Below are positions 1,912-20,366 of a stretch of DNA of 34,807 nt, in pieces; within the stretch, counting starts at the first letter, position 1; each line of letters opens with the position of its first letter. The stretch is from Deltaproteobacteria bacterium PRO3 (GTDB taxonomy: Bacteria; UBA10199; DSSB01). The stretch is from NCBI GenBank assembly GCA_030263375.1, contig SZOV01000027.1:1-34807 (forward strand), in the 5' to 3' direction. The notes beneath the pieces are model-generated. The model searched no databases and had not been told where the DNA came from. It saw only the letters and a list, made by a program, of their open reading frames with translations. The position numbers and the translations under genes were made by a program.

Positions 1912-3214
1912 AAAACCCGCCAAGGGTAAGACCCGGACCATCAAGGTCGACTACCTCGCCCGCGTCGAAGGGGAGGGGGCCCTCTACATCCGGCTGAAGG
2001 GCGACGAGGTCGCCGACGTGAAGCTGAAGATCTTCGAACCGCCGCGCTTCTTCGAGGCCTTCCTGCGCGGCCGCGCCTTCCGGGAGGCGCCCGACATCAC
2101 CTCGCGGATCTGCGGGATCTGCCCGGTCGCTTACCAGATGAGCGCGGCCCACGCCGTGGAGGCCGCCCTGGGTCTGCGCGTGGACGGCCCGCTGCGCGCC
2201 CTGCGGCGCTTGCTGTATTGCGGCGAGTGGATCGAGAGCCACACCCTGCACATCTACATGCTGCACGCGCCCGACTTCCTAGGCTATCCCGACGCGATCC
2301 GCATGGCCAAGGATTTTCCCGAGGTCGTCCAGCGCGGCCTGCGGCTCAAGAAGACCGGCAACGAGATCATGACCCTGGTCGGCGGCCGCGAGGTGCATCC
2401 GATCAACGTGCGGGTGGGGGGCTTTTACCGGGCGCCGCGGGTCGAGGAGCTCCGCGCCCTGATCGCGCCGCTGCAATGGGCCCGGGAGGCCGCCCTCGAG
2501 ACCCTGCGCTGGGCCGCGGGGTTCCGCTTTCCCGATTTCGAGCGCGACTACGAGTTCGTCGCCCTGCGGCACCCGGAGGAGTATCCCCTCAACGAGGGTC
2601 GCATCGTCTCCAACCGCGGCCTGGATATCTCCGCCGCGGAGTTCGAGGCGCATTTCGTCGAGGAGCATGTCGCGTATTCCAACGCCCTGCACTGCGTCTT
2701 GCGGGAGCGCGGCGCCTATTTCGTCGGGCCCATGGCCCGCTACAACCTGAATTTCGACAGGCTCTCGCACTATGTCCAAGACGCCGCCCGCACGGTCGGG
2801 ATGGGGCCGACGGAGCGCAACCCCTTCAAGAGCATCCTGGTGCGAAGCGTCGAGGTGCTCTACGCCTGCGACGAGGCCCTGCGGATCGTCGAGCAATATC
2901 AGGCGCCGGAGCGGGATTTCCTAGAGGCCCCGCCGTGCGCGGCCGAGGGTCATGCCTGCACCGAGGCGCCGCGCGGCATCCTCTACCATCGCTATCGCCT
3001 GGACGCCACGGGGGCGATCAAGGAGGCCAAGATCGTCCCGCCGACCTCCCAGAACCAAAAGACCATCGAGGCGGACCTATGGCGCTTCATCCCGCCCTAC
3101 GTCCGCCTGCCGCAGGAGGAGCTGCGGGGCTACTGCGAGCAGGCCGTCCGCAACTACGACCCATGCATCTCCTGCGCCACGCATTTCTTGAAGTTGGAGG
3201 TGGAACGGGGATGA
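1892..3214 (+). CDS. hydA: [NiFe] hydrogenase alpha (large, catalytic) subunit
   Basis: Predicted 440-residue catalytic subunit carrying the NiFe(CN)2CO centre that oxidises H2 or reduces protons. All four nickel-ligand cysteines are visible: C74 and C77 in the N-terminal [11 protein letters not shown] motif, and C425 and C428 in the C-terminal DPCISCATH motif. After His431 there is a short tail of nine residues, which is the part normally removed by the maturation protease once nickel is inserted; the protease gene follows directly. The length and the [11 protein letters not shown] form fit group 3b rather than membrane-bound uptake enzymes. The first 15 residues are lysine rich. The gene overlaps the small-subunit gene by 20 bases and the protease gene by 4 (ATGA). 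Confidence 0.95.
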
Positions 3215-3660
3215 AGCGTGTCATCGGCATCGGCAACGATTTTAGGCGGGACGACGCCGCGGGCCTCGTGGTCGCGCGGGCCTTGAAGGCGCGGGCGCCG
3301 GCAGGCTGCGAGGTGCTGGAGGCCAGCGGGGAGGGCGCCCAACTGATGGAGCTTTGGAAGGGCGCCGAGGCGGTGATCCTGATCGACGCCCTGCAATCCG
3401 GGCATCCGCCCGGCGCCATCCGGCGCTTCGCGGCCCACCGCGAGGCCTTGCCGGCCCGGAGTTTTCGTTATTCCACACATGCCTTCAGCCTGGGCGAGGC
3501 GATCGAGCTGGCTAGGGCCCTGGGGGAAATCCCGCCGCGCCTGGAGGTCTTCGGGATCGAGGGCCGGGATTTCTCCGCCGGGGAGGGGCTCTCTCCCGAG
3601 GTTGCGGCGGCGGCACGGGCGCTTGCTGAGGAAATCTTTGCTATAATGAGGGAACCATGA
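3211..3660 (+). CDS. Hydrogenase maturation protease (M52/HyaD-HybD family)
   Basis: Predicted 149-residue endopeptidase that would trim the C-terminal tail of the large subunit after nickel insertion. It opens with the family motif [14 protein letters not shown] (nickel-sensing Asp in the GNxxRxDD region) and contains an LIDALQSG segment matching the conserved D-A region, then [14 protein letters not shown] and VFGIEG segments typical of the family. The ATG at 3211 overlaps the large-subunit stop (ATGA); the same frame is open far upstream but that part is antisense-like shadow. Its position directly after the large subunit identifies its partner. Confidence 0.92.
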
Positions 3661-4661
3661 AAGTCGCGGTCTTGGGGGCCGGCGCCTTCGGCACAGCCTT
3701 CTGCAAAATCCTGGAACGCCACGATCACGAGATTCGCCTCTGGGCCTGGACCGAGGAGGAGGCGAAGGGGCTCCGTCAGACGCGACAGAATCCCAACATG
3801 CCCGGCGTCATGCTCGCGCCAGGCGTGAAGGTGACGAGCGACCTCCAAGAGGCCCTGACAGGCGCCTCACTGGTCGTCGGCGTGACTCCCTTCAACGCGA
3901 TTCGCGGGACACTCGCCCAGGCCAAGGCCTTTTTGGAACCCAACGCCGTCCTGGTCAACGGCTCGAAGGGGCTGGAGATGGAAAGCTTCCGGACAGCGGA
4001 ACAGATCTACCGCGAGGTCCTGCCGGCCGAGATTGCGGAGCGCGCGGTCTTCGTCTCGGGGCCGACCTTCGCCAAGGAGCTGGCCGCCGGACTGCCCGCG
4101 GCCTTGGTCGGGGCGTCCCAACGTCCGGAATCGGTCGATTGGGTCCGCGAGGCGATCGCCTCCCCGACCTTCCGGATCTTTTCCTCGAAGGACACCGTCG
4201 GCGTCTGCCTGGCCGGGGCCTTGAAGAACGTCTACGCCATCGCGGCCGGCGCCTCCGACAGCCTGGGCTACGGCCTCAACGCCCGCGCGGCGCTCATTTC
4301 GCGGGCCTCCGCCGAGATGACCCAGCTGGGCGTCAAGCTGGGCGCGGATCCGATGACCTTCATGGGCCTGGCGGGCATCGGCGACCTGGTGCTGACCTGC
4401 ACCGGCGACCTGTCGCGCAACCGCCGCCTGGGCCTCGCCCTGGGCGAGGGGAAGACGCCGGAGCAGGCCTTCGCAGAGCTTCACGGCATCGCGGAGGGCT
4501 ATTACACGGCCCGCGCCATCCACCGCATGAGCCGAAAGCTCAAGATCAAGCTGCCGATCGCCCACCTGATCTACCGCTTTCTCTTCGAGGGTCTCGAGCT
4601 GCACCAGGCCGTGAAGATCCTCCTCTCCCTGCACACCGACCACGAGGTGAACTATGCATGA
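3657..4661 (+). CDS. gpsA: Glycerol-3-phosphate dehydrogenase [NAD(P)+]
   Basis: Predicted 334-residue cytosolic enzyme that reduces dihydroxyacetone phosphate to sn-glycerol 3-phosphate for phospholipid synthesis. Visible motifs are the dinucleotide-binding GAGAFGTAF at residues 7-15, NGSKGLE, SGPTFAKELAAG, the ALKN segment with the catalytic lysine, and GLAGIGDLVLTCTGDLSRNRRLG. Some usually constant positions differ (SRASAEM in place of the common TRGLAEM). It overlaps the protease gene by 4 bases (ATGA) and the hypA gene by 8, so it is embedded in the hydrogenase operon rather than merely next to it. That suggests co-regulation with an NAD(P)H-linked hydrogenase; any metabolic coupling is inference. 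Confidence 0.95.
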   Translation: MKVAVLGAGAFGTAFCKILERHDHEIRLWAWTEEEAKGLRQTRQNPNMPGVMLAPGVKVTSDLQEALTGASLVVGVTPFNAIRGTLAQAKAFLEPNAVLVNGSKGLEMESFRTAEQIYREVLPAEIAERAVFVSGPTFAKELAAGLPAALVGASQRPESVDWVREAIASPTFRIFSSKDTVGVCLAGALKNVYAIAAGASDSLGYGLNARAALISRASAEMTQLGVKLGADPMTFMGLAGIGDLVLTCTGDLSRNRRLGLALGEGKTPEQAFAELHGIAEGYYTARAIHRMSRKLKIKLPIAHLIYRFLFEGLELHQAVKILLSLHTDHEVNYA

Positions 4662-4917
4662 GGCCCATCTCATCCAAGACCTGATCCACAAGATCGAAAA
4701 GATCGCCGCGGAAAACGGCGGGGGGCGCGTGGTCGGCGTTCGCGTCAAGCTGGGGGCCTTAAGCCACATGTCCGCCGCGCACTTTCGCGAGCACTTCGAA
4801 CAGGCCTCGCGGGGCACCCTCGCGGCCGGGGCGGCCCTGGTTGCTGAAGAATTGAAGGACATTCACGACCCCCGGGCCCAGGACATCCTGCTGGAGAGCG
4901 TGGAGCTCGCGGAGTGA
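4654..4917 (+). CDS. hypA: HypA-like nickel chaperone lacking the zinc-binding domain
   Basis: Predicted 87-residue protein. The N-terminus MHEAHLIQDLI matches HypA, including the Met-His-Glu nickel-binding start, and VKLGALSHMSAAHFREHFEQASRGTLAAGA matches the HypA core. Full-length HypA is about 113-118 residues with two CxxC pairs binding zinc. Here there is no cysteine at all: the sequence passes from the beta strand ending in VAEEL through a short linker to ILLESVELAE, which corresponds to the normal C-terminus. The zinc loop therefore looks cleanly excised rather than lost by frameshift. Nickel delivery to the large subunit is the expected role. It overlaps gpsA by 8 bases, and hypF begins at or just after its stop. 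Confidence 0.85.
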   Translation: MHEAHLIQDLIHKIEKIAAENGGGRVVGVRVKLGALSHMSAAHFREHFEQASRGTLAAGAALVAEELKDIHDPRAQDILLESVELAE

Positions 4918-4919
4918 AC

Positions 4920-7184
4920 ATGGAAGCGTCGCGGCTGCGCCTGGAGATCGGCGGGGTGGTGCAGGGGGTCGGCTTCCGGCCCTTCGTCTACCGCCTGGCC
5001 CGCGAGCTGGGGCTGGCGGGCTGGGTGTGTAATTCCGCGGCGGGGGCGAGCCTCGAGCTGGAAGGAAGCGAGGCGGCCCTGGAGGGTTTTCTGCTCCGTC
5101 TCCCGCGGGAGAAACCGCCGCACGCGGAGATCGCCCATCTCGAGGTCCGCAAGATCCCGGTCCGAGGCGAGGGCGCCTTCGAGATCCGGCCCAGCCTTGC
5201 GGGAGAAAAGACGGCCGCGATCCTCCCGGACCTCGCCGCCTGCCAGGACTGCCTCGCGGAGCTCTTCGACCCCGCCGACCGGCGCTACCGCTATCCCTTT
5301 CTCAACTGCACCCGCTGCGGGCCGCGCTTCAGCATCCTCGAGGCCTTGCCCTACGACCGGGCCAACACCACGATGAGGGGTTTTGCGATGTGCGAGGCCT
5401 GCCGGGCGGAGTACGAGGATCCCCGCGACCGCCGCTTCCACGCCCAACCAATCGCCTGCCCGCATTGCGGGCCGCGGCTGGAATATTGGGACGCGGAGGG
5501 CCGCGCGCTGGCGGAGCGGGAAGAGGCTCTGCCATGCGCCGTCCGGGCCGTGCGGGCGGGGAAGATCCTGGCCCTCAAGGGACTCGGCGGATTTCACCTG
5601 ATCGCGGACGCGCGCAACGACGAGGCCTTGGCGCGCCTGCGGCGGCGGAAGGCGCGGGAGGAGAAACCCTTCGCCCTGATGTTTCCGTCGCTGGCGGCGC
5701 TGCGCGGGGCCACCGAGGTCTCGGAGCTGGACGCGAGGTGGCTTCAGTCCGCCGAGGCCCCCATCGTCCTGCTGCGCAGGCGGGCCGCGGCGGGGCTTTC
5801 CACCGCCGTCGCGCCGGGAAACCCTTACTTGGGCGCGATGCTTCCCTACACGCCCCTGCACCATCTCCTGATGGCGGAGTGGGGATTTCCCGTGGTGGCG
5901 ACCAGTGGAAACCGCGCCGAGGAGCCGATCTGCACCCGCGAGTCCGAGGCCTTGGAGCGCCTGGGCGGCATCGCGGACGCTTTTTTGGTACACGATCGGC
6001 CCATCGCGCGCCCGGTGGACGATTCGATCCTCCGGGTGATGGCGGGCCGCGAGATGCTCCTGCGGCGCTCCCGCGGCTTTGCGCCCCTGTCGGTGGCGGT
6101 GCCGATTTCGAGGCCGGTCCTGGCCCTGGGCGCCCATCTCAAGAACACCGTGGCCCTCGGCGTCTCGGACCGGGTCTACGTCAGCCAACACTTGGGCGAC
6201 CTGCAAACGCCGCAGGCCATGGCCGCCTTCGCCGAGGCGGCCGAGCGCTTGCAGGCCTGCTACGAGACCCGTCCGGAGGCCGTAGCCTGCGACCTGCATC
6301 CCGACTACGCCTCCACGCATTTCGCCGAAAGCTTCGGCCGGCCCTTGCGGCGCGTGCAGCACCATCATGCGCACGTCGTTGCTTGCATGGCGGAGCAGGG
6401 CTTGGAGGGAAGGGTGTTGGGCGTCGCCTGGGACGGCCTCGGCTACGGCCCCGACGGGACGCTGTGGGGAGGGGAGTTTCTGCTGGCGACGCGCGCGGCC
6501 TTCGAGCGGGCGGGGTATTTTCTGCCCTTCCCCTTGCCCGGAGGCGAGCGGGCGCTGCGCGAGCCGAGGCGCGTCGCCCTGGGACTGCTCCACGAGGCCC
6601 TGGGTCCGGCGGGCCTCGCCGATTTCCAGGGTCCGCTGCGCGCCGCATTTTCCCCGGCGGAGTGGAGGCTGTTGCGGGAGATGATGGAGAAGGGGCTGCA
6701 ATGTCCGCGCAGCAGCGGCGTCGGCCGCCTCTTCGACGCCGTGGCGGCCCTGATCGGCCTGCGCCGGGTCCAAAATTTCGAAGGGCAGGCCGCGATGGAG
6801 CTGGAGTTTTTGTGCGAGGAGGCGGATGATATCGTCGGATATTCCTTGGAAACCCGTCCCGAAAGGGAGGGTTTCATCTTGGATTGGCGCCCGATGCTGC
6901 GGGAGCTCTTGTGCGATCTCGCGCAAGGCACGGCGCGGGCCCGGATCGCCCGCCGTTTCCACCTAGGCCTTGTCGAGGGTCTCTTGCAGGCGGCGCGCCT
7001 CGCAGGGGAGCGAAGGGTCGTGTTGACCGGCGGCTGTTTTCAAAATAAATTCCTCCTCGAGGCGGCCCTGCGGCGCCTGGAAGAGGCGGGCTTCGAGCCC
7101 TATTGGCACCGGAGCATCCCCCCCAACGACGGCGGGATCTCCCTGGGACAGGCGGCCGTCGTCGCCGCGCAGGATCGAGGTTGA
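4920..7184 (+). CDS. hypF: Carbamoyltransferase HypF
   Basis: Predicted 754-residue enzyme that transfers the carbamoyl group of carbamoyl phosphate to the C-terminal cysteine of HypE, the first step in making the cyanide ligands of the NiFe centre. Domains in order are an acylphosphatase domain (GVVQGVGFRPFVYRLA near residue 15), two zinc-finger-like repeats with C-x2-C-x18-C-x2-C spacing (CQDC...CTRC and CEAC...CPHC), a YrdC domain (KGLGGFHLIADA) and a Kae1-like domain with the metal-binding HHHAHVVACMAE. ATG 4920 has a GGAG five bases upstream; a GTG at 4914 overlapping the hypA stop is an alternative giving two extra residues. The length is normal for the family. Confidence 0.96.
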   Translation: MEASRLRLEIGGVVQGVGFRPFVYRLARELGLAGWVCNSAAGASLELEGSEAALEGFLLRLPREKPPHAEIAHLEVRKIPVRGEGAFEIRPSLAGEKTAAILPDLAACQDCLAELFDPADRRYRYPFLNCTRCGPRFSILEALPYDRANTTMRGFAMCEACRAEYEDPRDRRFHAQPIACPHCGPRLEYWDAEGRALAEREEALPCAVRAVRAGKILALKGLGGFHLIADARNDEALARLRRRKAREEKPFALMFPSLAALRGATEVSELDARWLQSAEAPIVLLRRRAAAGLSTAVAPGNPYLGAMLPYTPLHHLLMAEWGFPVVATSGNRAEEPICTRESEALERLGGIADAFLVHDRPIARPVDDSILRVMAGREMLLRRSRGFAPLSVAVPISRPVLALGAHLKNTVALGVSDRVYVSQHLGDLQTPQAMAAFAEAAERLQACYETRPEAVACDLHPDYASTHFAESFGRPLRRVQHHHAHVVACMAEQGLEGRVLGVAWDGLGYGPDGTLWGGEFLLATRAAFERAGYFLPFPLPGGERALREPRRVALGLLHEALGPAGLADFQGPLRAAFSPAEWRLLREMMEKGLQCPRSSGVGRLFDAVAALIGLRRVQNFEGQAAMELEFLCEEADDIVGYSLETRPEREGFILDWRPMLRELLCDLAQGTARARIARRFHLGLVEGLLQAARLAGERRVVLTGGCFQNKFLLEAALRRLEEAGFEPYWHRSIPPNDGGISLGQAAVVAAQDRG

Positions 7185-12374: not shown

Positions 12375-15300
12375 TCATTTACGGCATCTCGCTCCGACCC
12401 TGAATCCCGCCCACACCGTCACCGCCAAGGCGAAGCAAAGCGCAAACTGGCGCGGGGCTCCGAGCGGATTTTCCGTCGAACTGAGGGCGCAACCCCCGCT
12501 CTTGACCGACGTTGCGCGGCAGGAACCGTCCGTGTCGAAGGGGCACGAGTCCAAGTGATCGAGCTGTCCGTCGTTGTCGTCGTCGCCGTCGCAGGCGTCG
12601 CCTAGGCCGTCGCCGTCCGTCTCGGTCTGCGCGGGATTGTGGTGGTCGGGGCAGTTGTCGTAGTCGTCGTGGATGCCGTCCCGGTCGCGGTCGGCCAGCG
12701 CCTTGGTGCCCGGAGGCGGAGGATTGCCGACCAGGCCGCCGCAAAACTGAGCCGCGGGCAGGGACTGGCCGGCGCAGGAACCCGCCAGGTCCGCCGCGGC
12801 GGGGACCCAGGGGACGTCCCAGTCCGCGTTGTCCGGGAAACACTCGGGCGCGGGGCGCCGGTCGACGTCGTCGGCGACGAAATCTCCCGGCAGGGTGACG
12901 CGGAAGCCGATGCAGCGGGTCTTGAGGACGCCGTTCTCCATAAAGGCGGGGCAGTCGATGTCGCGCACCGACCAGCTGCAGATGTCGTGCTTCACGTCCT
13001 CGCCGAGCACCTGGATGCACTCGTTATAGAGGTCGGGATCGTCGGCCTGCAGCGTGGCGGAACATTGGCAGGCGTCGTTTTTCCATTCGCAGAAGCTTTT
13101 CGGCTGGCAGGCGTCCTGTTTGGCCAAGGCGTAATTGTCGGCGAAGACGCTCATGTCCACCGTCACGCTGAGGATGCCCATCGCGGGGTCGTAGCTTGGC
13201 GGATCCCAGGGCCAGTTCAAGTCTTGGAACTGCAGCGCCAAGGTGCCCAGGTCGACGCTCACCGCCTGGACGTTGGTGTTTTGGAAATTCGGGTGATTGG
13301 CGCCGACGTACAATTGGTAGGTCTGCCGCGTGGTCGGCTGCGCGTAGACGAGGAAGACGTAGTAGGACTGATCGGCCTGAAAGATGTTTTTCAGCGCGGC
13401 GTTCTGCTGCGAGGCGGGACCGTCCGTCGTCGCGATGTAATACTTCCCGTGGTTGGCGGTCAAGTTGATGCGGCCCCCGATGGCGGGGCCCATCATGCGG
13501 ATCTTCGTGGTGTTGGTTGCCGGCGGGTTTTCCTTAGGATTGAGGTACTGTCGATAGAGCGGCACGCCGTAGCAGCCCGAGGTGCAGTTGGCGTTCCATT
13601 GAGCTTGGTCGCAGCCGGTGCCGCAGCCCGGGTAGACGACGGTCGTCACGTGCTCGTAGGGGCTGGTCTTGGCCGTCGCGTCGGACTCGCATTCCAGGAC
13701 CTCGAGCGGGGCGTTGAAGAAGGGGTCCTCGTTGACCGAGACGGTGGCCTTCAGGCCGGTCAGCGAGCCGTCGTCGTCGTTCAATATGGTTTGACGGTCG
13801 ATGGCCGTGAAGTTGTCGAAGGCGGCGGGGTTCCAGGTGGCGTAGCGATTCTTTACCTCCTGCACGTTCGTCTTGAACCAAGAGCCCGGCGTCTCGGCCG
13901 CGAAGAGGGGCTCGATCACGAAGTGGCGGATGTCCACGCCCTCGAAGAAGAGGTTCGTCGAGTGGAAGGCCGGCGGGTAATAGAAGCCGTTGGACTGCTT
14001 CCAGGCGATCGCGGCGTTGGGCAAGTAGCCCTTGCCCGTGGCCGGGTCGCCCGGCATGCCCAGGACCTTCCCGTACATCCAACCGCTGTTGTTGCACTGC
14101 TGGTTGACGTTGGGAAAGGGGCAGTCGGCGATCGTAGCCTTATGGATGTTCAAAAAGGCGTTGGAGTCCTGGAGGGAAGGGCCGTCGTAGATATTGAAGA
14201 AGCGCTGGTTCATGCCGAAGTTGCTGAGCGGCATGGCGATGCCCTCGTCCACGGAGAGACAGTAGTTGATGTCGGTATTGTCGCACTTCAGTCCCTTCAG
14301 CTTGCCGTCCGGCGTTTGCAAGGGGTTGAAGGGCCCGGCGTCGGAGACGAAGGGGTTCAGGACCGCCTGAGTGGCGGGGTCTACCGCGTTTTGGGCATGG
14401 CCGATGAAGACGTTCTGCCGCGCCAGCATCCAGTTGCCGGGGATGACCGAGGAGTGGGTGTAGTCGCCGCCGGTGACGAAGGTCAGCCCCGCGTTTTGCA
14501 CGTCGGTCAGGACGCTCTTGAGCATCAGGAACCAGCGGGGCCTCAGCCAGATCGCCGAGAAATTGGTCTCCGCCCAATGGAACGACGAGGTGTATTGGTC
14601 GAGCACCGTGACCATGCAGGCCTGGCGGTTGCTGGCGGAGCAGACCGGGACGGCGCTGCAATCGGTGTCGTCGCAGCGGGTATAGGCCGGCAGCGTCTGA
14701 GAGACGATGGGATAATAGGACTCTTGGGACTTATCCGTGTTGGGCGCGGGGGCCAGGGGATTCGGGACCGCAGTCAGGCGCAGCGAGCCGTCCTCGACGC
14801 CGTGGCAGACCGCCGAGTCGGGCGTGGAATTGAAGGAGTTCATCGCGCTGCTGCAGAAGTTTCCTTTGAACTTTTTGATGGGCGCGGTCCCGCCGCGGGC
14901 CAGGCCGGCCTGGATGGAGGCATAGGACTCCCAGGTCATGTGCCGCGAGTGCCCGCTGATCGAGCCCAGGACGGGCCAGTAGCAGGCGCCGCAGGCGGTG
15001 GCGCCGGCCGCCATGTTGTATTCGAAGTCGTTCCAGCCGTTCATCATCCAAAACACCGAGGGGCGCACGACGTCGGACTGGTAGGCGAAGAAGGGCGAGG
15101 CCAGACCGCCGGGGATGGAGGCGGCCGAGAGGATGCCGGGCACCTTGCGGGGATTTTGCGCGTTGTCCACCGCAGCGCGCGCCAGGACGCCCAAGTTGGA
15201 ATGGAGCTTGTTGTCGGTTTCGGTCCCGTCTTCCAGGTAGAAACCATGGCCGATCGAGAGATAGCCGACGTTTCTAGCCAGCGTCACCTGCTGGGCGCCG

Positions 15301-16586
15301 TGCAGGGTGATCCATCGGGTCATCGAGTCGTGGATCGAGTTGTCCTGGACGAGGGTGTCCGGCGGCGTTTGGCGGGCATGGTGGAAATGGATCGGGTAGT
15401 GACCGATGCGTCCGCCTTGCCCCAACTGGTAGAATTCGACGCCCTGAATCTTGACGTCCTTGGCGCCCTGCCGGATCACCGTGTGTCCGCCGAAATAGTA
15501 GGGGTGCTGCTGGCCGGGCTGTTCCGTCGAGGGAACCAGCTGGTCCGCCGGAGGAAAGCAGTCGTAGTCGCAGTCGGACTTGGCCGGATCGAAGCTGTCG
15601 CCCGCCGACACTATGCGGATGCTGCGCGTCAAGAGCCCGACGGCGGCGCGGGTCTCGGCGGTGGCGCCCGCGAGCTTGAGTCGGTCGGGCAGGGAGTTCA
15701 GCGGAAAGGCCTCGCCGTTGTGGACGTACTTCACGGGCTGTTTCAGGGTGAGGGTCTTGCGGTCGGCGGCGATCTGCTCGATCTCGAGGCGCTCGGAGTG
15801 GCCGGGGAGATAATCGGTCGTGGTCAGGACGATCCAATCGCCGGCCTCCCAGTCGACCTCGCGGTCGAGGATGAGGGTGCTTTCGCCCGCCTTGACCGTC
15901 TGGGCCAAGCGCACCCAGCTGGTGCCGGAGCTGGAAGAATCGAGGTTGCCGTAGCTCGCCCCTTTCTTTCCGAAAAGCTGGAGCGTCCCGCCGAAGGAGA
16001 CGCCGAGGACCTTGTAGCCGAAATAGCGGTCCGGGGCGCCGTCGTCGGCGGGCAATGTGCCGTAGGTGTAGAAGTAATCGAAGACCCGACACTGCTCGAG
16101 AGGGGTGTCCGGGGCGTCGGGCGGGAGGCAGACCTTGCTCGCGCCGTTGCTGCTCCAGATGGCGGCGGGGACGCCGCAGCTGGCGTCTGTTTGACAGGCC
16201 ACGCCGGTGCCGCCGGGCCCCTGGTCCGCGCCGTAGAGGTGAATCGTCACGGCGCCGCCGGCGCTGCCGATGGGCGCGCCGGGCGAGCCCGCCACCAGGC
16301 TTCCGCCGTTCTCGACCAGGATGTTCTTGGCCCAGAAGTCGATGGCCTGATCTTGAAAGGTCAGGCTTCCGCCGTTGACGATGTTGACGTTGCCGTAATG
16401 AAAGGTGCCCGCGCCCGCGCTGCAGGGGGCGCTGAGGACGATGTCCTCGCCGCTGCCGGGGGCCAGGGTTCCGCCGGGGCAGGGATCGGGCGCGGCCGCG
16501 ACCGGGCTTGGCGTCGAAAGCTTTCCGAAGGCGACTAAAAAGGCAAAGACGAGGGCCGCATAGAAAAAGAACCTTCGTTCGAGCAT
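12375..16586 (-). CDS. Large secreted G8-domain/beta-helix protein with TSP3 repeats and C-terminal anchor
   Basis: Predicted 1403-residue exported protein. Residues 1-30 form a signal peptide (LERRFFFYAALVFAFLVAF, cleavage near SPVAAA). A G8-like domain follows (about 45-120: VNIVNGGSLTFQ, NILVENGGSLVAG), then a right-handed beta-helix region similar to CEMIP/TMEM2 proteins (WIVLTTTDYLPGHSE; HFHHARQTPPDTLVQDNSIH; GHGFYLEDGTETDN). A long cysteine-rich part follows, and thrombospondin-type-3 calcium repeats (DRDRDGIHDDYDNCPD, DGDGLGDACDGDDDNDG) lie near residues 1320-1355. The end carries SGGCAL (Cys1366), a hydrophobic helix and RVGARCRK. The ATG at 16586 is chosen for the signal peptide; a TTG at 16658 is less likely. 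Animal relatives depolymerise hyaluronan, but the bacterial activity is unknown. Confidence 0.85.
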   Translation of the reverse strand: MLERRFFFYAALVFAFLVAFGKLSTPSPVAAAPDPCPGGTLAPGSGEDIVLSAPCSAGAGTFHYGNVNIVNGGSLTFQDQAIDFWAKNILVENGGSLVAGSPGAPIGSAGGAVTIHLYGADQGPGGTGVACQTDASCGVPAAIWSSNGASKVCLPPDAPDTPLEQCRVFDYFYTYGTLPADDGAPDRYFGYKVLGVSFGGTLQLFGKKGASYGNLDSSSSGTSWVRLAQTVKAGESTLILDREVDWEAGDWIVLTTTDYLPGHSERLEIEQIAADRKTLTLKQPVKYVHNGEAFPLNSLPDRLKLAGATAETRAAVGLLTRSIRIVSAGDSFDPAKSDCDYDCFPPADQLVPSTEQPGQQHPYYFGGHTVIRQGAKDVKIQGVEFYQLGQGGRIGHYPIHFHHARQTPPDTLVQDNSIHDSMTRWITLHGAQQVTLARNVGYLSIGHGFYLEDGTETDNKLHSNLGVLARAAVDNAQNPRKVPGILSAASIPGGLASPFFAYQSDVVRPSVFWMMNGWNDFEYNMAAGATACGACYWPVLGSISGHSRHMTWESYASIQAGLARGGTAPIKKFKGNFCSSAMNSFNSTPDSAVCHGVEDGSLRLTAVPNPLAPAPNTDKSQESYYPIVSQTLPAYTRCDDTDCSAVPVCSASNRQACMVTVLDQYTSSFHWAETNFSAIWLRPRWFLMLKSVLTDVQNAGLTFVTGGDYTHSSVIPGNWMLARQNVFIGHAQNAVDPATQAVLNPFVSDAGPFNPLQTPDGKLKGLKCDNTDINYCLSVDEGIAMPLSNFGMNQRFFNIYDGPSLQDSNAFLNIHKATIADCPFPNVNQQCNNSGWMYGKVLGMPGDPATGKGYLPNAAIAWKQSNGFYYPPAFHSTNLFFEGVDIRHFVIEPLFAAETPGSWFKTNVQEVKNRYATWNPAAFDNFTAIDRQTILNDDDGSLTGLKATVSVNEDPFFNAPLEVLECESDATAKTSPYEHVTTVVYPGCGTGCDQAQWNANCTSGCYGVPLYRQYLNPKENPPATNTTKIRMMGPAIGGRINLTANHGKYYIATTDGPASQQNAALKNIFQADQSYYVFLVYAQPTTRQTYQLYVGANHPNFQNTNVQAVSVDLGTLALQFQDLNWPWDPPSYDPAMGILSVTVDMSVFADNYALAKQDACQPKSFCEWKNDACQCSATLQADDPDLYNECIQVLGEDVKHDICSWSVRDIDCPAFMENGVLKTRCIGFRVTLPGDFVADDVDRRPAPECFPDNADWDVPWVPAAADLAGSCAGQSLPAAQFCGGLVGNPPPPGTKALADRDRDGIHDDYDNCPDHHNPAQTETDGDGLGDACDGDDDNDGQLDHLDSCPFDTDGSCRATSVKSGGCALSSTENPLGAPRQFALCFALAVTVWAGFRVGARCRK

Positions 16587-16748
16587 GAGAGCCCCGCTTT
16601 CCCTGAAAAGATGGACTAGAAGAAACTCATTGTAAGTAGACGGCCCCTCCCCGATCAAGGCCCATGACAGGATAGGCCCCTGGAGCGGCGATATCGCAAG
16701 AGTTTTTTCTAAGCCAAAGAGGAAAAGCGACGTCCGGCTCCGCGGGCC

Positions 16749-17363
16749 TTATTTAGCGCGCTTGTAGAGCATCTCCATCGAGCGAAACTCTTTGCCGTTC
16801 GCGTCCGGCATGTACATGCTGAAGGAGAACTTGTCCTTATCGAGGATCTTCCACTCGGAGCGGAAGTTCACGTTGCCCTTGATCGGACAGCTGAAGGAGC
16901 CTTGGTCGGTGATGGTCTTGGTTGCGGCGTCGTATTGGCCCTTGGCCTGGCCGATGCCGGTGGACATGCTGTCCATCCAGGTCGAGACGTATTCCTTCTT
17001 CACGTTGTCGTAACCGACGTAGCCCAGGCCGGTGAAGTCCTCGCCGCCCCAATTTCCCTTGAAGTCCTGCTTGAGGAAGCGCCCGCCCAACACCCAGCTG
17101 AAGGTGCTGGTGCCCGCGCTTTGCTGCGGCTTGTCGCCGGGCTTCATCCACGATTTGCTGGTGACCGTCCATTCGCCCTCGAAGCTCTTCAGGATTTCGT
17201 GGCCCGCGCCGGGGGTTCCGGCCTCTTTTGCCTTGGCCATCATGGCCTGCATTTCGGCGTCGGCCTGAGCCTTTTTATCCTTGTCGGTGCCCCAAGAGGG
17301 ACCCGGGACGAAGAGGGTGAGTGAGAGGGCAAGAAGGGCAGCGCATCGCGCGATCGAATTCAT
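16749..17363 (-). CDS. DUF1579 family exported protein
   Basis: Predicted 204-residue protein with a signal peptide (ARCAALLALSLTLFVPGPSWG, cleaved near residue 25). The mature part matches the DUF1579 pattern: FEGEWTVTSKSWMKPGDKPQQSAG, FSWVLGGRFLKQDFKG, FTGLGYVGYDNVKKEYVSTWMDSMSTG. The fold is expected to be a lipocalin-like barrel; biochemical function is unknown. A GGAGG site lies ahead of ATG 17363. It is the third gene of the minus-strand group DUF1579-DUF1428-SRPBCC that diverges from the tetR gene, so control by that repressor is likely if the three are cotranscribed (gaps of 67 and 58 bases). Confidence 0.88.
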   Translation of the reverse strand: MNSIARCAALLALSLTLFVPGPSWGTDKDKKAQADAEMQAMMAKAKEAGTPGAGHEILKSFEGEWTVTSKSWMKPGDKPQQSAGTSTFSWVLGGRFLKQDFKGNWGGEDFTGLGYVGYDNVKKEYVSTWMDSMSTGIGQAKGQYDAATKTITDQGSFSCPIKGNVNFRSEWKILDKDKFSFSMYMPDANGKEFRSMEMLYKRAK

Positions 17364-17430: not shown

Positions 17431-17790
17431 TCAGGCATCCACCAAGACCTTGAATCCGCCGTAGACCATGCGCTTGCAATCGAAGGGCATGTTTTTCGGA
17501 TCCATGGAGCAGGCGAGGCGCGGGTCTTTCATGACCTTGGCGTTGACACGGTCGCGATGGGCACGCGATTTGTAGACGATGTAGGAGAACACGACGGTCT
17601 CTCCCGGCTTGGGTTTCAACACCTTGGGGAAGGGGAGGCCGAACTTGATATTGAGGTCGTCGCCGACGCATTCTTTGTAGTCGAGGGCGCCGTGCTCGCG
17701 CCAGATTTTTCCGGCCTTGGCGGCCATGCGGCGGTAGGCCTGCAGGTTTTTCTTCGGCACTGGTAGGAGAAAACCGTCGACGTATTTCAT
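17431..17790 (-). CDS. DUF1428 family protein (YbaA-like)
   Basis: Predicted 119-residue cytosolic protein starting MKYVDGFLLPVPKKNLQAYR, the typical start of DUF1428/YbaA, a dimeric ferredoxin-like (alpha/beta barrel) family. Further conserved pieces are WREHGALDYKECVGDD, VVFSYIVYKSRAHRDRVNAKVM and MPFDCKRMVYGGFKVLVD. Function is unknown; members often sit with SRPBCC, glyoxalase-like and DUF1579 genes under TetR or ArsR regulators, as here. A GGAGG lies eight bases before the ATG. The length is normal. Confidence 0.92.
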   Translation of the reverse strand: MKYVDGFLLPVPKKNLQAYRRMAAKAGKIWREHGALDYKECVGDDLNIKFGLPFPKVLKPKPGETVVFSYIVYKSRAHRDRVNAKVMKDPRLACSMDPKNMPFDCKRMVYGGFKVLVDA

Positions 17791-17848: not shown

Positions 17849-18391
17849 TCATTGCGGCCTGGGCGGGGCCTCCGCAACCGCTTTCAGATCCGCCAGGCCT
17901 TTTTCGAATTGCCCCCCGATCATCTTGTCCATGTTCATGAAGAGGCCCATGGCCTTGGCCATGAAGTTGTTCTTTCCGAACATGCTCCAGGTGACGAGGG
18001 TCTTGTCGCCCTCGGGCTTGAAGGTGAATTCCGCGGTGTGGGTGGCGGCGAAGGGCTTGAGAAATTCGAGCTGGATAAGGATCCGCTCATTGGGACGGCT
18101 CTCGAGGATGGTCATGCGACCCTCGCCCACCTGGGAGTTGCCGGCCCAGGCGTAGGCCGCGCCGGCGCCGGACTGGGAGCCCGAATAGCTCTGTTTCATC
18201 GCGGGATCCAGTTTGCCCCAGGGATTCCAGGTCTCCCAGAGGCGGAAGTCGTCGACCTGGGCGAAGGCCGCCGCCGGTGGGGCGGAGACGGCCAGGCTGC
18301 GGCTGACTTTGAAGTCGGCGGGGCGCAAAGCGACGACGACCACGAAGAGGACTGCGACGACCGCGAGGACGATGAGAATTTTGGAGAGCAT
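17849..18391 (-). CDS. SRPBCC family (START-like) protein with N-terminal membrane anchor
   Basis: Predicted 180-residue protein. Residues 4-23 (KILIVLAVVAVLFVVVVAL) form a membrane anchor, followed by a polyketide cyclase/START-type domain with VSRSLAVSAPPAAAFAQVDDFRLWETWNPW, GEGRMTILESRPNERI and the TLVTWSMFGKNNFMAKAMGLF segment typical of this subgroup. Ligand unknown. ATG 18391 is preceded by AAGGAG; the same frame is open upstream to 18499 but that part runs through the promoter and operator and is not protein-like. It is the first gene of the minus-strand set, reading away from tetR. Confidence 0.9.
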   Translation of the reverse strand: MLSKILIVLAVVAVLFVVVVALRPADFKVSRSLAVSAPPAAAFAQVDDFRLWETWNPWGKLDPAMKQSYSGSQSGAGAAYAWAGNSQVGEGRMTILESRPNERILIQLEFLKPFAATHTAEFTFKPEGDKTLVTWSMFGKNNFMAKAMGLFMNMDKMIGGQFEKGLADLKAVAEAPPRPQ

Positions 18392-18465
18392 GGCAGGATT
18401 CTCCTTGGGCGCGCCGGGACCGCCTGAAACGCGCTGAGTTTGGGAGTCAGAATGATTATTTATTA

Positions 18466-18483
18466 TTGTACTATATGGTACAA
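18466..18483. promoter_or_regulatory. TetR-type operator 1, overlapping the minus-strand promoter
   Basis: TTGTACTATATGGTACAA is an 18-base near-palindrome with 16 of 18 positions symmetric. On the minus strand a promoter fits exactly: TTGATA (18494-18499), 18-base spacer, TATAGT (18470-18475), so the -10 lies inside the operator. A second copy of the pattern TG(T/C)ACTA-NN-T(A/G)GTACA stands in front of tetR. Repressor binding here would block the SRPBCC operon. The binding protein is inferred from position. Confidence 0.65.
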
Positions 18484-18562
18484 AAAATATTCTTATCAAG
18501 AAAAATTTGCTATTTTATACAGAATTTTTGATAAAATGATCACATTTGTTTGGTATAAAATA

Positions 18563-18578
18563 TGCACTAAATAGTACA
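18563..18578. promoter_or_regulatory. TetR-type operator 2, ahead of tetR
   Basis: TGCACTAAATAGTACA is a 16-base near-palindrome (7-base arms with one mismatch) matching the core of the operator at 18466-18483. Its centre is 96 bases from the first. It ends 16 bases before the tetR ATG and lies just after a possible -10, TATAAA (18554-18559), which suits autorepression. Confidence 0.6.
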
Positions 18579-18594
18579 GTAAGAGTCTCCGGGT

Positions 18595-19188
18595 ATGGCC
18601 GTTAAAACCGAAACACGCGACCGCATGATCCAAGCCGCCCTCGACCTTTTCCATCTTCAGGGCGTGAAGGGCACCAGCATCGACGAGGTCCTGGCGAGAT
18701 CCGCCACGGGCAAGAGCCAGTTCGCGCATTATTTCAAAACCAAGGACGGATTGGTGCACGCCGTCCTGCAATATCTCCACGCGCTCATCCGCGACGGCAA
18801 GGCCGGGACGGGTTATCGAATCCGTTCTTGGGAAGATTTGGAAGGCTGGTTCGATCAGTACATCCGCTTTCAGTGGGAGGTGCATTGCGAGCGCTCCTGC
18901 CCCATGGCCACCATCGGTAACGACCTCGCGGCGGACCAAGAGCTGCTGCGCCAGGATATTCGCCTCTTTCTGGAATGGAGCGGGGGGCAGCTGGCGCGCT
19001 TCTTCGCGGAGCGCAAGGCCGCCGGCGAGCTGTCGGCCGCCGCGGATCCGGACGCCCTGGCCGCGCTCTGCCTGACCGTCATGCAGGGCGGGATGCTGCT
19101 CAGCAAGATCCGGCGGGACACGACGACCTTCGAGCGCGCGGCGGAGCAGGCGCTGGCCTACATTCGGTCGCTGCGGAAGGGGTCTTAA
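18595..19188 (+). CDS. TetR/AcrR family transcriptional repressor
   Basis: Predicted 197-residue regulator. The N-terminal helix-turn-helix is classical: RDRMIQAALDLFHLQGVKGTSIDEVLARSATGKSQFAHYFKTKDGLV. The C-terminal ligand-binding half has GGMLLSKIRRD and ends in a helix with LAYIRSLRKGS. It resembles the TetR_C subgroup around YxaF/LmrA-like repressors, though the ligand cannot be read from the sequence. It diverges from the SRPBCC-DUF1428-DUF1579 group across a 203-base AT-rich gap holding two matching palindromes, one in front of each gene set. No clear Shine-Dalgarno precedes the ATG. Confidence 0.95.
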   Translation: MAVKTETRDRMIQAALDLFHLQGVKGTSIDEVLARSATGKSQFAHYFKTKDGLVHAVLQYLHALIRDGKAGTGYRIRSWEDLEGWFDQYIRFQWEVHCERSCPMATIGNDLAADQELLRQDIRLFLEWSGGQLARFFAERKAAGELSAAADPDALAALCLTVMQGGMLLSKIRRDTTTFERAAEQALAYIRSLRKGS

Positions 19189-19331: not shown

Positions 19332-20366
19332 ATGAAACTTCATTCTTTTTTTCGCCGAATCAGAAAACACCTGCTGCGAGGGGCGCCGGTCTTTGCAGCC
19401 GCCGCCCTCGGCCTGTCCAGCCCCGCTTTGGCACAGTTAATGGTGACCGATTTAAACGGCGGCGTCACCGCGGACGAACTGGCGCAGTCCTTGGCCGGCT
19501 CCGGCGTGACGATTTCCAATGTCACTTTCACGGGCGCGCCGCAGGCCGCGGGGTCCTTCAGCGGAGGCAACGGGATCATCGGTTTTTCCGACGGGATCAT
19601 TCTCGGCTCGGGGTCGGTCAGCTCCGTGCCGGGGCCGAACGACGAAGACGGCGTCACGACGGATTTCGGCGGGCCGGGCGACGCCGACCTCGATCCGCTG
19701 ACCGGCGGATTCCCGACTCAGGACGCCGCCGTCCTTGAATTCGACTTCGTCCCGCAGGGGGGATCGGTCTCCTTCCTCTACGTTTTTACCTCGGACGAAT
19801 ACAACGAGTTCGTCGCCTCCGAGTTCAACGACGTCTTCGCCTTTTTCGTTAACGGGACGAACTGCGCTTTGGTGGGGTCGGATCCGGTTTCGATCAACAC
19901 GATCAACAACGGGAATCCCTTCGGCGTCGGTCCCTCGTCGCACCCCGAGCTCTTCATCAACAACGACTTGGAAGACGGCGGCGGTTCCATCGACACCGAG
20001 ATGGATGGGCTCACCCGGGTGCTCACCTGCACCGCGACGGTCAACTCCGGCGCGACCAATCACATGAAGCTGGCCATCGCCGACGTCAGTGACGGGATCT
20101 TGGACGCCAACGTCTTCATCCAGGCGGGAAGCTTGAGCGCCTGCGAGCCTCAAGCGGAAATCTGCAACGGCCTAGACGACGACTGCGACGGCGTCGTGGA
20201 CAACGGTTGCACGGGGGCCGGCGGCGCGCTGATCGAGGGCGCGGGTTGTTCCTTGAGGGCGGGCACGTCGGGCTCGGCGGGTTTAACGGTGGGGCTCTTG
20301 GCTATGGCGTCGGTTTTTTTCGCCGTCAGGCGGGCGAAGAGTCATTCATCGAACTCCGGTCGATAA
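19332..20366 (+). CDS. Secreted choice-of-anchor L domain protein with MopE-type motif and C-terminal anchor
   Basis: Predicted 344-residue exported protein. The signal peptide ends near residue 36 (SSPALA-Q). The main domain is the choice-of-anchor L type: LAQSLAGSGVTISNVTF, GIIGFSDGIILGSG, QDAAVLEFDFVPQGGSVSFLYVFTSDEYNEFV and DVFAFFVNGTN. A MopE-like metal-binding motif follows (ICNGLDDDCDGVVDNGC, residues 277-293). The C-terminus has GAGCSL (Cys306), a hydrophobic stretch (LTVGLLAMASVFFAV) and RRAK, resembling MYXO-CTERM-type sorting tails. A strong GGGAGGG lies four bases before the ATG. It is likely a surface or outer-membrane-anchored structural or adhesive protein; its ligand is unknown. 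Confidence 0.88.
   Translation: MKLHSFFRRIRKHLLRGAPVFAAAALGLSSPALAQLMVTDLNGGVTADELAQSLAGSGVTISNVTFTGAPQAAGSFSGGNGIIGFSDGIILGSGSVSSVPGPNDEDGVTTDFGGPGDADLDPLTGGFPTQDAAVLEFDFVPQGGSVSFLYVFTSDEYNEFVASEFNDVFAFFVNGTNCALVGSDPVSINTINNGNPFGVGPSSHPELFINNDLEDGGGSIDTEMDGLTRVLTCTATVNSGATNHMKLAIADVSDGILDANVFIQAGSLSACEPQAEICNGLDDDCDGVVDNGCTGAGGALIEGAGCSLRAGTSGSAGLTVGLLAMASVFFAVRRAKSHSSNSGR

Follow-up and report, generated by a model that had tools for sequence, protein, structure and literature searches.

NemR of E. coli senses electrophiles and oxidants through cysteine, with a sensing role for Cys106, and its box is TAGACC-N4-GGTCTA. TetR of Tn10, whose C-terminal domain and ligand are other than those of the regulator described here, is divergent from its target and has paired operators. 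According to an excerpt of PMC9736018, these tet operators lie 11 bp apart, and the motif given there for PA3973 differs from the palindromes reported below. QdoR (YxaF) of Bacillus subtilis, compared here together with LmrA, is described in part of PMC8481877 as regulating its own gene, where a single operator lies downstream of the -10; its target promoter has two operators, and quercetin releases QdoR. AcuR (acrylate utilisation) and ScbR-type regulators were also compared.

The window (contig SZOV01000027.1 of Deltaproteobacteria bacterium PRO3; 34,807 nucleotides, the whole stretch of DNA that was analysed) carries a tetR gene that, as in Tn10, is divergent from its putative targets, with two palindromic putative operators (O1 and O2) in the 203-bp spacer (18392–18594) between the SRPBCC ATG (18391) and the tetR ATG (18595). 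The features of the locus are:

16749–17363, minus strand: DUF1579 gene, presumed last of the operon (Pfam, 67-bp gap, terminator scan)
17431–17790, minus strand: DUF1428 gene (Pfam; matches E. coli YbaA, 2okq)
17849–18391, minus strand: SRPBCC gene (Polyketide_cyc2; Pfam), presumed first gene of the operon
18401–18406, minus strand: AAGGAG, likely SRPBCC ribosome-binding site (sequence)
18466–18483: putative operator O1, TTGTACTATATGGTACAA, overlapping the -10 of the candidate SRPBCC promoter
18470–18499, minus strand: candidate sigma-70 promoter TTGATA-18-TATAGT for SRPBCC-DUF1428-DUF1579 (10/12 matches)
18563–18578: putative operator O2, TGCACTAAATAGTACA, 16 bp before the tetR ATG
18595–19188, plus strand: tetR (TetR_N with TetR_C_13, 197 aa; Pfam; AlphaFold2 pLDDT 90.9)
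18709–18732, plus strand: codons of tetR residues 39–46 (G39, then helix 3, KSQFAHY), the DNA-reading part
18898–18900, plus strand: tetR Cys102 codon (alignment with NemR Cys106)

The regulator belongs to the TetR family by its TetR_N domain (PF00440; 36.2 bits, curated cut-off 24), carries TetR_C_13 (PF16925; 44.6 bits, cut-off 27) and also passes the LmrA/YxaF C-terminal family (PF21993; 30.7 bits, cut-off 27). The last match is its likeness to QdoR and LmrA, from which it differs in its divergent sequence and, by alignment, in the Pro that YxaF has at the position of residue 39. Likeness to AcuR and ScbR-type regulators consists of weak full-length NCBIfam matches, far under the curated cut-offs of the AcuR and ScbR_bind_reg equivalogs (42.6 against 247 and 44.7 against 150 bits); the CurR equivalog was likewise below its cut-off (36.9 against 300 bits). 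In a search of solved folds, 3bru ranked first (Z 21.9) and NemR second (Z 19.8, rmsd 2.4 over 186 residues), and CifR cysteine mutants with operator DNA occupied rows 13–16 of the first 16 rows.

The likeness to NemR comprises the TetR fold, a cysteine (Cys102) that aligns with NemR Cys106 in a column invariant in 11/11 rows, although a separate 10-row alignment put that NemR stretch elsewhere, and a short palindrome just before nemR, TAGACCGACTGGTCTA, with the same ACY-N4-RGT core as the window sites. Cys102 does not single out the window TetR as a redox sensor, since another alignment has it in every one of its 28 rows. In contrast, identity between the two proteins is 17–22%, depending on the alignment, NemR has Pro where the window TetR has Gly at position 39, and the neighbours are nemA and gloA rather than SRPBCC, DUF1428 and DUF1579 genes. 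TAGACC-N4-GGTCTA is present upstream of nemR, whereas the window sites are TGTACT/TGCACT-N4, the outer half-site being TAG in the former and TGT in the latter; the window palindromes thus do not match the NemR box.

DUF1579 is counted in the operon because it is co-directional, is separated by a 67-bp gap and has no terminator-like site nearby on the operon strand (six were found on the opposite strand). A large G8/CEMIP beta-helix gene (12375–16658) adjoins the operon and may or may not be its fourth gene; its start has a promoter-like site (16658–16629), the number of such sites being at chance level. A gene of this kind (2452–5430; 26% identical over part) also adjoins tetR of L021, from Planctomycetota, and this shared neighbour may be due to chance, as genome G048 has three such genes and G000 one. 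Downstream of tetR, an ORF (19332–20366) gives a weak match to a MopE copper-binding motif, below the Pfam cut-off.

An earlier note, made from the letters of this DNA, had described two matching palindromes 96 bp apart in an unusually AT-rich spacer, the second directly before tetR. All of this was borne out: O1 and O2 are present at the positions claimed, 96 bp apart start to start (compared with 11 bp for the tet operators), O2 ends 16 bp from the tetR ATG, and G+C content is 36% in the spacer and 21% in its core (18450–18584), compared with 65% in the window. A palindrome ahead of the regulator's start codon, with its match at the gene opposite, is the sequence arrangement of an autorepressing TetR with a divergent target. 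When the spacer was resampled 5000 times with a first-order Markov model, only one resample equalled the observed pair (two non-overlapping palindromes with at least 6/7 pairs, agreeing at 12/14 positions). One O2 half-site is off consensus, with C at base 3, so that O2 is probably weaker than O1 and the base-3 rule described below is broken there. A perfect 10-bp inverted repeat (TATTTTATAC / GTATAAAATA; 18511–18520 / 18553–18562) lies between O1 and O2, and its arms are perhaps mirrored -10-like elements.

The genome search proposed in the earlier note, for TGTACTA-N2-TAGTACA, returned eight places within three mismatches in the 3.55-Mb genome (198 contigs), comprising O1 and O2 at one mismatch, none at two and six at three; a reversed control pattern gave 49 places within three mismatches in the same genome. 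Should this motif be what TetR recognises, the tetR/SRPBCC locus is probably its whole regulon.

The same note had proposed a TTGATA-18-TATAGT promoter with its -10 inside the first palindrome. The sequence and the overlap are indeed there, but the count of such sites is at chance level (one found in the region, 0.7 expected, sd 0.9), so the candidate promoter is weak evidence alone. No tetR promoter was found under the criteria used for the SRPBCC promoter, only looser matches.

Relatives of the window TetR were absent from the other 45 genomes of its phylum at E≤1e-15 and from the other six genomes of its family at E≤1e-8, and conservation was therefore tested in other phyla. When 84,980 species were scanned, each represented by one genome, 321 relatives emerged, and the best 80 of these were retained. 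The eight closest loci (L019–L026; 40–52% identity), none from the phylum of the window, belong to Planctomycetota, Omnitrophica, Dadabacteria, Micavibrio and Alpha- and Gammaproteobacteria, plus one in the phylum of L025. A later search added the most similar TetR (L132, 53%), which is also nearest to the window TetR by path length in one tree, while L025 is its sister row in two trees with weak support (90/57; 82). Plasmid relatives reached at best 34.1% identity among the 20 listed of 47 records, and a scan of viral contigs found no relative.

A palindrome with no more than 2/14 mismatches lies within 60 bp before tetR in six of the eight closest loci (L019, L022, L023, L024, L025 and L026), a position that O2 resembles, and the O1 16-mer itself is present before tetR in L019 and L118. 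The upstream site of L021 (TGTACTGATCGGTAAA) has four mismatches; L020 has a degenerate upstream site (TAGACCTGGAGGTACA) plus TGTACCTGTAGGTACA just downstream of tetR. In L132 no site was found upstream of tetR within three mismatches, and a two-mismatch copy (TGTACTGATTAGTATA) lies between tetR and a GST gene. Six loci (L019, L022, L026, L118, L122 and L123, the last three from the same order as L023) have a second copy between tetR and the gene next to it. In L019 and L026 this copy, before a GST gene, fills the gap between TTGACA and TACAAT and overlaps TACAAT (read from the sequence, with genes assigned by Pfam), in what reads as a core promoter, where bound repressor would block polymerase. 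In the TetR clade of L022 and L137–L140, from the order of L023, genes for MMPL-type transporters are linked, and operators flank tetR on either side in L022, L137, L138 and L139.

More broadly, a near-perfect TGNACY-N4-RGTNCA occurs in 34 of the 80 homologue loci within the 310 bp scanned, which cover the start of tetR and the DNA upstream of it; going by 2655 control segments, 0.7 would be expected. The possibility raised in the earlier note, that the palindromes are not kept beside the same genes in relatives, was checked: they are kept in six of the eight closest loci, including L025 with the same partners. Its reading of the palindromes as TetR operators gains support, at sequence level, from their recurrence beside tetR in other phyla.

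In L025 (Omnitrophota), tetR is divergent from DUF1428 (67% identical to that of the window), SRPBCC (52%) and then DoxX genes, with one palindrome, TGTACCAATTGGTACA, in the shared divergent spacer. G014, from the family of the window, carries YCII-SRPBCC-DUF1428 genes, of which SRPBCC and DUF1428 are 70% and 82% identical to those of the window. It lacks a relative of the window TetR at E≤1e-8, and the 3.3 kb scanned (L130) contain no such palindrome. The palindrome thus seems to go with the regulator and not with the SRPBCC-DUF1428 genes, as L025 has both and G014 has the genes without a close TetR or, in the stretch scanned, a site. These G014 genes (L133, 1310–3841) adjoin a DUF6596 ECF sigma-factor gene, not tetR, i.e. 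the same pair with a different kind of regulator. DUF1579 had no match in the L025 or G014 stretches. Genes adjacent to operators of relatives (n = 52) most often encode AhpC/TSA (14, several being near-copies from mycobacteria), MMPL (5), GST (3), alcohol dehydrogenase (3) and glycosyl hydrolase family 15 (3), with DUF1428 found once; these genes were picked mechanically, with at least one regulator-like ORF included and 10 of 62 loci without a suitable gene.

The two palindromes are almost certainly the binding sites of the adjoining tetR's own product, as judged from sequence, and it is highly probable that a TetR_C_13 repressor acting at O1 and O2 represses the operon and tetR until an inducer releases the dimers. 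A dimer at O1 would cover the -10 of the candidate SRPBCC-DUF1428-DUF1579 promoter and block RNA polymerase; one at O2, close upstream of where tetR starts, would limit tetR itself. An inducer freeing the dimers would turn on both directions. We infer that binding, autorepression, repression of the operon, its transcription as one unit and joint control of the three genes would all follow this scheme. It is very improbable that the palindromes arose by chance in an AT-rich promoter region and are bound by no protein: a core of 21% G+C does favour self-complementary stretches, and other inverted repeats occur there, such as 18511–18520 with 18553–18562 (all 10 pairs), but a comparable pair arose in just one of the 5000 same-composition resamples, and the palindrome recurs before tetR in other phyla while being rare in control segments. 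It is unlikely, though less so, that TetR, while binding both sites, acts chiefly on its own gene, activates the operon, or forms a loop between dimers 96 bp (about nine helical turns) apart. The single site before tetR in L023, L024 and L025 and the weakly predicted operon promoter are in keeping with such behaviour; the overlap of O1 with the candidate -10, a classical place for a repressor, the second copy in the apparent core promoter of the neighbour gene in L019 and L026, and the location of the single L025 site in a shared divergent spacer argue instead for repression of the operon.

The signal is assigned more tentatively. By analogy with NemR, it may be an electrophile or oxidant sensed through Cys102, and the operon may be a local detoxification module; thiol-reactive stress appears the likeliest signal given the NemR fold and Cys106 alignment, the CifR folds and the AhpC/TSA and GST neighbours. 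SRPBCC proteins typically bind hydrophobic ligands, and a non-reactive small hydrophobic inducer (flavonoid, aromatic or lipid), as for QdoR/YxaF, is a serious competitor at somewhat under even chances. It draws on the passing LmrA/YxaF C-terminal score (30.7 against 27 bits) and on the release of QdoR by quercetin (part of PMC8481877), and is opposed by the alignment of Cys102 with NemR Cys106, by the presence of operator-bound CifR cysteine mutants in the top 16 rows of the fold search and by the frequency of peroxiredoxin-like or GST genes beside relatives.

Operators of the relatives form two classes, TGTAC and TGGAC, that follow a single residue of the regulator. In the AlphaFold2 model, residues 29–36 and 40–46 are predicted helices, and residue 39 directly precedes the recognition helix (helix 3, 40–46). 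Residue 39 presumably corresponds to Glu37 of TetR. The TetR substitutions V36F/E37A/P39K alter operator specificity (excerpt of PMC6515661). In the CprB-DNA crystal, K43, G44, Y47 and F48 contact bases and T42 contacts the backbone (part of PMC4150764); counting from the helix-starting lysine, T42 would correspond to residue 39. The helix position, the CprB contacts and the TetR specificity change make a role for residue 39 in operator reading plausible, and it may plausibly act directly or by placing Lys40. Position 44 is Ala in the window TetR and L025 and Tyr in nearly all other rows, and Tyr there contacts a base in CprB (part of PMC4150764).

Among 92 loci (the best 80 of the scan, four plasmid loci, seven from other genome searches and the window), with site class assigned at one mismatch or better, residue 39 agrees with half-site base 3 in all 61 assignable loci (25 Gly with TGTAC, 36 Ser with TGGAC). 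The other 31 are two ties, both Gly, and 29 loci without a clear site (26 Ser, 3 Gly); of 1326 control segments 41 were assigned, 38 of these to TGGAC. Residue 39 is the only aligned column dividing the two classes without error, and residue 43 also differs between the groups, with L065 and L096 as exceptions. A Fisher p of 1e-17 from this comparison takes no account of relatedness and is not treated as proof; pattern probabilities, being post hoc, are likewise set aside.

When 181 loci (the earlier 92 together with 89 new ones) were searched without bias for NNNACY-N4-RGTNNN, the outer pairs being perfect, 72 had sites, compared with 22 of 930 control segments, and the combinations Thr/CATAC and Pro/TAGAC were added. 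All 23 Gly loci with a site (33 in total) have TGT, and all 36 such Ser loci (of 90) have G at base 3 (TGG 31, CCG 2, and CGG, GGG and CAG 1 each). Thr is accompanied by CAT in 7/7 (14 in total), Pro by TAG in four and GGC in one (31 in total) and Gln by TTG in one (of two), while the 11 Arg, Lys, Ala and Asn loci yielded no site in this search. The palindromes of the Thr loci (L174, L195, L211, L223, L240, L241 and L248) are CATACC-N4-GGTATG, with two copies in four of these loci.

A tree of the 72 site-bearing loci requires four changes in the class of the residue and likewise four in that of the base; the three well-supported independent pairs are all concordant, giving a sign test p of 0.25, and with three pairs this test cannot reach 0.05. 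With only about four evolutionary changes underneath, the relationship between residue 39 and base 3 is covariation and not a demonstrated cause. A rule fixed in advance was applied to the 89 new Pseudomonadota loci (29 that were returned and the 60 places next in the list; matches occurred in 128 of 398 genomes). Five were assigned, and three of the four with Gly or Ser agree (Ser/TGG 2, Gly/TGT 1), the exception being L176 (Ser, with a one-mismatch TGT site); L214 (Pro, also with a one-mismatch TGT site) falls outside the rule. This is a weak test, as the new loci mostly belong to other subfamilies. The chances are about even that the outer half-site of TetR_C_13-type operators, NNNACY-N4-RGTNNN, is determined by the residue just before the recognition helix, with Gly corresponding to TGT, Ser mostly to TGG, Thr to CAT and Pro to TAG.

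A full-text literature search found no paper naming DUF1428 and SRPBCC together, and gave only unrelated matches for DUF1428 with TetR; nothing relevant was seen among the matches listed for the operator sequence or for NemR with TAGACC. Among the matches listed, the titles and abstracts of family-wide motif studies (IclR, GntR) and of single-TetR studies do not contain the residue/base rule.

The arrangement itself is an ordinary self-controlled repressor of known kind. Through it, the DUF1428-SRPBCC pair gains a regulatory handle that is seen in two phyla, and identifying what releases the window TetR would reveal the stress that these genes serve. The possible one-residue rule is the part most worth taking further. 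The near one-to-one link between residue and base pair spans several phyla, and operator prediction for a large TetR group would become testable. If the rule is true, a Gly to Ser swap should turn the window repressor from TGTAC to TGGAC sites, and for many uncharacterised regulators a single residue of the sequence would be enough to predict the operators.
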